NCBI RefSeq assembly: GCF_009184905.1
Contig: NZ_WESC01000007.1
Coordinates: forward strand, 62,001 to 126,000
Length of the DNA: 64,000 nt
Source: Parvibaculum sedimenti
GTDB lineage: Bacteria > Pseudomonadota > Alphaproteobacteria > Parvibaculales > Parvibaculaceae
Direction: 5' to 3'
The notes beneath the pieces are model-generated. The model was not told the origin of the DNA. It saw only the letters and a program-made list of their open reading frames with translations, and ran no database searches. The position numbers and the translations under genes were made by a program. Positions 37,761 to 48,387 of the stretch are shown here, one piece after another. Position 1 is the stretch's first letter, and every line of letters begins with the position of its first letter.

Positions 37761-38465
37761 CTATTCCTTTCTGATGCGGAGCATCCGGGTCGCACCGCGC
37801 TGAAACTCGAAGGGTACGCGCACGAGTTCCGGAAACAGCCCCGCCGCCTCCAGCGCATCCATGACCGCCGGCAGATGGCTGGATGGACGCCCGTCGAGAT
37901 TGACCAGCGGGAATATCCTCACCTCGCGCGCGACCCGCGCGAGTTCGAGCGCCGCCGAGACATGAAACGCTGCATCGAGATCGTCCCCATAGAGAAAGAG
38001 GAGATGGGAACAGAGCGCTGTTTGAAACGCATCATTGCCGAAGGGCAGAGCCGGCAATGATGCAGGCACATACCGCTCGCGGCCACAAGCCTCGAAGTCT
38101 GCAAGGAACAGCTCCAGCGCCTCGCGCCGAATCTTTTCGATCCGCTCCGGCGAACCGTATCGCTTCCAGTTGAAGCGGTATTGCGCGACACGCAGTCCCG
38201 CCATCATGTCGTTGCGGGTTGCCTCGAAGCGCTGCCGGATCGCCTCGCCACTCGCCGCGTAGATCGGATCGCAGGCGACAACATTGAGCCCCCGCTCCGC
38301 GGCCTCCGCCGCGAAGGACGCAGGGCCCCCGCCTACGTCGAGGACTGGCCCCTCCGGCGGCATGTCGGCAAACGCGAAATAGTCCGCGTACTCGTCATAT
38401 CGCCGCCCCCAGGGCACGATGCCCCCGAGGTCGAATTCCTTTCGTGCTTCAGCTTCCTTGATCAT
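37761..38465 (-). CDS. Class I SAM-dependent methyltransferase-like protein, unknown substrate
   Basis: A 234-residue protein with a class I SAM-binding fold: PVLDVGGGPASFAAEAAERG is motif I (about 40-60) and VVACDPIY the acidic strand after it. The N-terminal WGRRYDEYADYFAF and the central LPFGNDAFQTALCSHLLFLYG belong to a widespread family without assigned function, recognised by pattern only. The gene is read from a region that looks like a complete tryptophan-codon attenuator 60-175 bases upstream. It could therefore act on a tryptophan-related metabolite, on tRNA, or be induced by Trp shortage for another reason; none of these is shown. Confidence 0.82.
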   Translation of the reverse strand: MIKEAEARKEFDLGGIVPWGRRYDEYADYFAFADMPPEGPVLDVGGGPASFAAEAAERGLNVVACDPIYAASGEAIRQRFEATRNDMMAGLRVAQYRFNWKRYGSPERIEKIRREALELFLADFEACGRERYVPASLPALPFGNDAFQTALCSHLLFLYGDDLDAAFHVSAALELARVAREVRIFPLVNLDGRPSSHLPAVMDALEAAGLFPELVRVPFEFQRGATRMLRIRKE

Positions 38466-38524
38466 TTTGCGCTCCGTAACGGCGCCGGAGGCTGCCCCTG
38501 AAGGCGCCTTCCATCCGGTTACGG

Positions 38525-38606
38525 AAATAAAAAGGCCGCCTCCAAATGGGGCGGCCGATCCGGCAGGTCGATAGACGACATGACTGGGCCACCCTTCAGG
38601 TGGTCC
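38525..38606 (-). promoter_or_regulatory. Putative Trp-dependent transcription attenuator
   Basis: Read on the minus strand, four segments can pair in alternative ways. Segment 1 is GGACCACC (38606-38599), segment 2 GGGTGGCC (38594-38587), segment 3 GGCCGCCC (38556-38549) and segment 4 GGCGGCC (38540-38534). Segments 1:2 form a stem around the leader stop codon. Segments 2:3 pair over eight bases with one G-U. Segments 3:4 make a seven-base GC stem followed by TTTTTATTT, an intrinsic terminator. A ribosome stalled on the Trp codons would cover segment 1 and free 2:3; a ribosome at the stop would cover 2 and allow 3:4. Confidence 0.75.
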
Positions 38607-38640
38607 ACCAAGCCTTGTTGCAAAGAAACATGCGCGTCAT
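38596..38640 (-). CDS. Leader peptide with tandem tryptophan codons
   Basis: A 14-codon reading frame, MTRMFLCNKAWWTT, ending in TGA. GAGG lies eight bases before its ATG. The two TGG codons (38610-38605) fall three codons before the stop, exactly where a stalled ribosome would mask segment 1 of the attenuator. A second in-frame ATG at codon 4 is an alternative start. Rhizobial trpL leaders have the same design with consecutive Trp codons, but they precede trpE, while this one precedes a methyltransferase gene. Confidence 0.7.
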   Translation of the reverse strand: MTRMFLCNKAWWTT

Positions 38641-38678
38641 CGGTCTATCCTCGCCCGGCAAATCCGGGAATGGCCGGC

Positions 38679-38707
38679 AATCTACTCCCGGTCCGAGGGC
38701 TTGCCAA
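38679..38707 (-). promoter_or_regulatory. Candidate sigma-70 promoter for the leader and methyltransferase
   Basis: On the minus strand, TTGGCA (38707-38702) and TAGATT (38684-38679) are separated by 17 bases. They match the -35 box at five of six positions and the -10 box at four of six. Transcription would begin near 38672, about 30 bases before the leader ATG. The promoter lies just after the TRIC stop codon. Confidence 0.55.
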
Positions 38708-39350: not shown

Positions 39351-39530
39351 GCCGTTTCGCCTCCCAAATCGCTGCCACCCCTTGCTACGCGGCAGCACTG
39401 CCTTTAGTAAAATCGGCAGATGCTCTATTTTAAATGTCGGGCCGATCCCCCATATGGACTTCGGTCCTGCCCCCCCCCGCTCGCCGACACCATTCTGTAA
39501 CCTTAGCTGAAATTGCACCTGGAGAAGCCC

Positions 39531-48294: not shown

Positions 48295-48387
48295 TGGCGG
48301 AGAGGATGGGATTCGAACCCACGATACGGCTTTTGACCGTATAACGGTTTAGCAAACCGCCGCCTTCAGCCTCTCGGCCACCTCTCC
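48295..48387 (-). tRNA. tRNA-Ser (anticodon GCU)
   Basis: A serine tRNA with a long variable arm and an encoded 3' CCA (48295-48297). The acceptor stem GGAGAGG pairs with CCTCTCC; the anticodon loop around TTTGCTAAA gives GCU, reading AGC/AGU. The T arm reads GGGTTCGAATCCC. The cloverleaf folds without mismatch in the acceptor and T stems. Confidence 0.97.

Follow-up and report, generated by a model that had tools for sequence, protein, structure and literature searches.

In the E. coli trp operon, the attenuator carries tandem Trp codons over RNA segment 1 and a stop codon between segments 1 and 2, and its segments form the mutually exclusive pairings 1:2, 2:3 and 3:4. Attenuators of this type usually, though not by definition, control genes that serve the metabolism of the amino acid they sense or the charging of its tRNA. 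The S. meliloti attenuator trpL (rnTrpL) has consecutive Trp codons, two exclusive structures and a 14-residue leader peptide, and is followed by trpE(G) (PMC7298713, PMC7143759). The attenuators of Actinobacteria use double or triple UGG codons and GC-rich terminators with poly-U, display the triple gGCC-rGCy-GGCC and act on trp operons and trpS2 (PMC1262725). In the reports consulted, Trp attenuators precede genes for Trp synthesis or for tRNA-Trp charging (PMC1262725, PMC7298713).

We analyzed a 64,000-nucleotide stretch of Parvibaculum sedimenti DNA, hereafter the window, in which a leader of similar build stands in front of a gene for a class I SAM-dependent methyltransferase. Like the E. 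coli attenuator, it has tandem Trp codons over segment 1 and three exclusive stems, but its target gene is a different one. It shares with S. meliloti trpL the consecutive Trp codons, the two exclusive structures and the 14-residue peptide, with a methyltransferase gene where trpE(G) follows in S. meliloti (PMC7298713, PMC7143759). The repeated UGG codons and the GC-rich terminator with poly-U recall the Actinobacteria attenuators, whose triple is matched here by GGCC in segment 2, GGCC or CCGCC in segment 3 and GGCC in segment 4; target and phylum differ (PMC1262725). Within a limited literature search, the mechanism appears classical and the methyltransferase target new: among the open-access papers listed by that search, none reports a Trp leader before such a methyltransferase.

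We read the leader as a Trp-sensing, ribosome-mediated transcription attenuator of the trpL type that probably controls the methyltransferase gene starting 59 bases past its terminator, and we give this reading, drawn from sequence and modelling, a probability of about 0.8. It rests on the anatomy of the leader, its conservation, the complementarity of its segments, a footprint folding model and its constant association with the gene. When charged tRNA-Trp is plentiful, the ribosome would pass the two Trp codons (WW) to the stop and cover segment 2, the 3:4 stem would form and transcription would end near 38525. With charged tRNA-Trp in short supply, the ribosome would stall at WW and cover segment 1, segments 2 and 3 would pair, no terminator would form and the methyltransferase gene would be transcribed. 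Finding such a leader in Parvibaculum and in two genera related to it is a hint of a so far undescribed response to a lack of tryptophan, a condition in which the enzyme may benefit the cell.

Anatomy of the leader

The leader and the methyltransferase gene lie on the minus strand. A putative promoter, from which it would be transcribed, consists of a -35 element TTGGCA (38702..38707) and a -10 element TAGATT (38679..38684), both read from the sequence and separated by a 17-base spacer. The Shine-Dalgarno sequence GAGG (38649..38652) is found eight bases before the ATG at 38640 of the leader ORF MTRMFLCNKAWWTT (38596..38640), whose 14 codons and TGA, taken from the sequence and its ORF translation, would be translated into the leader peptide. 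Within it, the tandem Trp codons TGGTGG (38605..38610) are the predicted control codons, based on the sequence and on conservation in relatives. Alignment and duplex energies delimit segment 1, GGACCACC (38599..38606), the partner of segment 2; segment 3, GGCCGCCCC (38548..38556), the partner of 2 or 4; and segment 4, GGAGGCGGCC (38534..38543), which belongs to the terminator stem. Segment 2, GGGTGGCCC (38586..38594), for which folding was used as well, can pair with segment 1 or, as antiterminator, with segment 3. The U-run TTTTTATTT of the intrinsic terminator occupies 38525..38533, and the methyltransferase gene (37761..38465) begins with the ATG at 38465. A preliminary description of 38707-38525 had listed the promoter, the GAGG, a 14-codon leader, segments pairing as 1:2, 2:3 and 3:4 and the U-run, and our reading of the sequence finds each of them in its place.

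The duplex energies of the window segments are -13.2 kcal/mol for 1:2, -18.5 for 2:3 and -16.7 for 3:4. By plain folding alone, the window leader does not stand out (z -1.28, with 23 of 200 shuffles folding equally well), and the weight of the case therefore rests on conservation.

Between the terminator and the methyltransferase gene (38466-38524, minus strand), a further hairpin is predicted that pairs the gene's own Shine-Dalgarno sequence; translation of the gene may therefore be controlled too. Over 24 loci, counted with no shuffle control, this Shine-Dalgarno sequence is mostly paired in 17, unpaired in three and was not located in four.

Conservation of the leader with the methyltransferase gene

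The methyltransferase gene is present in 27 of the 40 genomes of the order that were searched, all of one family: 24 of the 27 Parvibaculum genomes, two Tepidicaulis-like genomes and one genome of a third genus. Two Rhodobiaceae MAGs and Tepidicaulis marinus are the named relatives that carry it. Among the loci, L003 and L025 apparently represent one genome, L023 and L024 one gene, and L026 and L027 were taken as G055 and G054. In all 27 methyltransferase-bearing genomes a short ORF with Trp codons and a terminator stand directly before the gene. The cultured type strain P. lavamentivorans DS-1 carries the leader at L152. The preliminary description had predicted a WW leader and alternative stems at the orthologues, and both proved common to the three genera (27/27 loci, with WW itself in 26). 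These orthologue leaders and their complementarities support its further proposal that the logic of the trp operon attenuator operates here upstream of a non-trp gene. In G017 (L023/L024), the methyltransferase match is split into two neighboring parts that lie in different frames, and the leader before it looks intact.

All 27 leaders retain the first Trp codon and 26 the second, and codons -9 to -1 are variable; conservation in the leader peptide is confined to WW and the stem-forming Thr codons. Over 24 aligned leaders, the first TGG is invariant and the T following it nearly so, though both lie outside the modelled 1:2 stem, and the Trp codons are therefore no mere by-product of pairing. 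The G002 leader has WR in place of WW (second codon CGG). This leader (L021) and that of G011 (L022) are nearly identical, with CGG in the former and TGG in the latter as second Trp codon, and WR is either a natural variant or a sequence error. In 19 of the 27 leaders the stop directly follows WWTT-type codons, two codons past WW; it comes one codon later in three and, unlike that of the E. coli attenuator, five codons later, inside segment 2 or beyond it, in five (L007, L008, L010, L013 and L043). Of the 27 leaders, 23 match the promoter pattern TTGGC[AG] with a 17-base spacer and a TA-type -10 element.

R1, a covariance model made from 24 of these leaders, matches the 24 Parvibaculum leaders at E <= 4.5e-18 (24 model rows, partly by construction), the Tepidicaulis-like leaders at E 2.2e-13 and 5.7e-11, and the third-genus leader at 9.3e-6. 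Within the window genome itself, R1 has 10 matches with E no higher than 0.05, of which a single one is strong; the locus of the second-best (L059) holds no short WW ORF. The 13 family genomes without the methyltransferase contain no R1 match better than E 2.2e-5, and the best match in these genomes (L063) looks like an ordinary terminator. We also scanned generically for WW leaders with the three stems; the scan recovers 22 of the 24 leaders given to it and finds 4 and 10 sites per 3 Mb of random sequence (68% and 62% GC). Over 260 kb of strand, it returned one site besides that of the window and one in Rhodococcus.

We extended the R1 search to 385 genomes of the class, which gave 42 matches besides two of the leaders and, under stricter filters, missed the third-genus leader (G053). 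A WW leader was found in one of the 28 matches that were checked (L115-L142). This match, L117, comes from an alphaproteobacterium of another family, where the WW leader MVNRPHLPAFIWWRSF and a terminator (reverse complement, from base 1480) precede trpS.

Among the trp genes, trpE alone was searched for Trp leaders. It is matched in 39 of the 40 family genomes, and the copy of the window genome passes TIGR00564. At the 26 Parvibaculum trpE loci, no short WW ORF occurs within 400 bases upstream; in these 26 genomes trpE lies directly behind a presumed ppiD or overlaps it (gap -4 to 46). Of the 39 trpE loci of the family, a single one shows a WW ORF upstream, that of G046, from a sister genus in which the methyltransferase is absent. 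This ORF (L104), MNVRERLMMYWWRN, is accompanied by a hairpin and lies about 154 bases before trpE, and the G046 leader failed the generic stem scan. A Trp leader before the methyltransferase in three genera, with trpE lacking one in Parvibaculum, suggests that Trp shortage may call for more than Trp synthesis.

At gathering score, none of the 4227 Rfam families matches the leader, and a tRNA at 48298-48387 is the only one to pass in the whole window. T-box and Trp_leader are presumably among the families that did not pass. At a lax threshold the nearest families are SorX (25.3 bits, E 3e-4), a match tentatively taken for a resemblance of terminators, and RcsR1 (RF02552; 23.5 bits, E 0.007). 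RcsR1 is transcribed from a position identical to that of the S. meliloti trp attenuator RNA rnTrpL (PMC7143759). The gathering score of RcsR1 is 60 bits; the window falls below it at 23.5, which sets the leader apart from S. meliloti trpL, and none of the 40 family genomes is over the threshold. With an E limit of 0.5, a search of the family with the RcsR1 model picks up 11 of the 27 leaders together with numerous other sites; its two best matches are the methyltransferase leaders of G014 and G019 (40.7 and 38.5 bits). Another G014 site, unrelated and without a WW leader, scores 38.0 bits, and lax matches occur in 7 of 14 control genomes. Given the unrelated G014 match, the lack of any match past 60 bits and the matches in controls, we regard RcsR1 as soft support. 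Judged from its sequence, the leader is of Trp attenuator shape and is no member of a curated family.

The resemblance to RcsR1/rnTrpL, among the nearest Rfam families and described as acting in trans (PMC7298713, PMC7143759), suggests another possibility: the main action of the leader, through its RNA or its peptide, might be in trans, in the manner of rnTrpL/peTrpL in S. meliloti, with the methyltransferase as a side passenger. At trpE, 26 genomes show no WW leader in the 400 bases upstream, and a distant Trp-sensing RNA could therefore be useful. Against this, the R1 search of the 13 gene-less family genomes gives no sign of a leader without the methyltransferase, the peptide is not conserved outside WW, and control in cis accounts for the conserved complementarities. 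We consider action mainly in trans improbable.

Exclusive pairings and the position of the ribosome

Control in cis by attenuation calls on the pairings 1:2, 2:3 and 3:4. On 24 aligned leaders, standard pairs fill 96.6% of the cells of 1:2 and 3:4 and 94.1% of those of 2:3; when the partner is slid by 1-3 columns, they fall to 32.6-62.3% and 27.8-63.7%, respectively. The same leaders show two-sided changes in 2 of the 16 pairs of 1:2 and 3:4 and in none of the 8 pairs of 2:3. Three of 500 shuffles reach the covariation score of 1:2 and 3:4. The 2:3 score is lower than that of all 500, partly because segment 3 of Tepidicaulis is misaligned in the 24-row alignment.

The leader segments barely vary within Parvibaculum. 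Read directly from the sequences, all three complementarities are kept in the three genera with changed letters; across these genera segment 2 is GGGTGGCC, AGGCGGTC or AAGGCGGGCC versus GGCCGCCC, GGCCGCCT or GGCCGCCTT. When segments are swapped between genera in the energy calculation, the resulting 2:3 and 3:4 duplexes often equal or exceed the native ones in stability, and only 1:2 favors its own partner, in two of the three genera. Given the thin covariation and these swap energies, the support for pairing is conserved complementarity rather than strong covariation. By complementarity, with weak covariation, the leader has the mutually exclusive pairings 1:2, 2:3 and 3:4 and, after 3:4, the U-run of a trpL-type attenuator.

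We then modelled the ribosome as a mask over 13 bases counted from the A-site codon and folded each leader through the end of segment 3. Over the 27 leaders, the mean probability of 2:3 is 0.99 with the ribosome at the first or second Trp codon, 0.62 one codon past WW, 0.08 two codons on and 0.03 three codons on. When the mask is varied from 11 to 16 bases, the final codon at which 2:3 can form lies between the second Trp codon and two codons further on in 26 or 27 of the 27 leaders. The model thus puts the switch point just after the Trp codons: a ribosome stalled at the control codons would free segment 2, and one at the stop would cover it. This agrees with the earlier suggestion that the Trp codons sit where a stalled ribosome would mask segment 1. 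Stalls ahead of WW would likewise permit 2:3. In the ribosome-free equilibrium, 2:3 is often favored over 1:2 (mean 0.69), and termination without leader translation would therefore rest on folding kinetics. Known attenuators depend on 1:2 forming first.

The methyltransferase, its neighbors and its homologues

The Pfam matches of the methyltransferase, PF13649 and PF13489, are both under the curated cut-offs. No Pfam, NCBIfam or PDB sequence match names a function, and there is no PDB relative at E 0.01. PADLOC returned nothing specific; its match to mad2 (E 1e-4, 37 residues) was taken for the common SAM-binding motif. Our searches of sequence databases and open-access literature found no link between this methyltransferase family and Trp and named no substrate for it, and the leader may serve as a regulatory clue.

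Homologues are found on 22 plasmid records from Actinomycetota, Bacillota, Cyanobacteriota, Pseudomonadota, Campylobacterota and an archaeon. Five 10-kb plasmid neighborhoods have no constant neighbor, and three of them have a GNAT acetyltransferase gene no more than 5 kb away. In chromosomes the distribution is patchy, with homologues in 8 of 385 genomes of the class, 5 of 398 genomes of the phylum and 25 of 369 genomes of a second class.

A methyltransferase spread over plasmids of many phyla could be a protective one, induced in an erm-like manner by a leader that senses stalled ribosomes generally, for example under a TrpRS inhibitor or a drug that targets ribosomes; resistance methyltransferases under leader control have been reported. 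However, no Pfam match to an rRNA methyltransferase was found at E 0.001, and the conserved WW and stem Thr codons fit codon reading over a drug-dependent arrest motif. We hold this general sensing to be quite improbable.

Across the loci examined the leader and the methyltransferase are a constant unit. In the window, the methyltransferase gene is convergent with an alpha/beta hydrolase gene and is therefore probably transcribed alone. A TRIC gene (PF03458) lies upstream of the leader in the window and in L003, and in 12 other loci examined the upstream gene is one of four others, some of them divergent. The divergent genes are one starting MSYTDILYAEA and one like the RND-adaptor-like gene at window position 39513; the others are a co-directional gene ending in MHYRLAK or a variant, or a thiolase-like gene (identities by protein reading). 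Although the terminator lies about 160 bases past the TRIC stop in the window, it is hardly credible that the leader is a chance ORF and the hairpin a terminator of the TRIC gene only, a terminator role that the preliminary description had named as the alternative, since the upstream gene changes between clades and is not TRIC in the 12 other loci, and the leader, WW and segment 2 are conserved regardless of it.

We also searched upstream of homologues outside the family. None of the 37 non-Rhodococcus loci has a WW leader in the upstream stretch searched; some of these share one genus or one genome, and their gene starts were picked by script, at least one of which (L188) looks wrong. The 37 leave out L071 (partial gene), L183 and L185 (gene not located), L184, L187, L190 and L191 (partial or broken), and 8 of the 22 plasmid records, two of them Rhodococcus.

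In Rhodococcus plasmids, the homologue, 35% identical to the methyltransferase, is preceded by a WW leader, MTLTQHWWPYF, in the five records read of seven (L076:4812-4890, L160-L163). Its stems would be GGCCGU/GCGGCC, GCGGCC/GGCCGC and GGCCGC/GCGGUC, its fold has a z of -3.33 over a 76-base piece chosen by the analyst, and it has no U-run. The records are near-identical and therefore count as one case. From the random-sequence scan rate, about 0.02-0.04 such sites are expected by chance in 38 upstream stretches of 350 bases. On this sequence evidence, we treat the Rhodococcus leader as a lead only, not a finding.

Taken with the leaders of Parvibaculum and its relatives, the Rhodococcus lead raises the tentative and, in our estimate, doubtful idea that the methyltransferase is a dedicated responder to a shortage of Trp or tryptophanyl-tRNA, a link that would have been made at least twice, in Parvibaculum and relatives and independently on Rhodococcus plasmids. 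If so, the enzyme would protect or modify something that fails in Trp shortage, for example by detoxifying a Trp-like or TrpRS-targeting compound. In Rhodococcus aetherivorans BW2, the methyltransferase (L160:1165-1907) is annotated as two overlapping ORFs, and this copy therefore looks broken.
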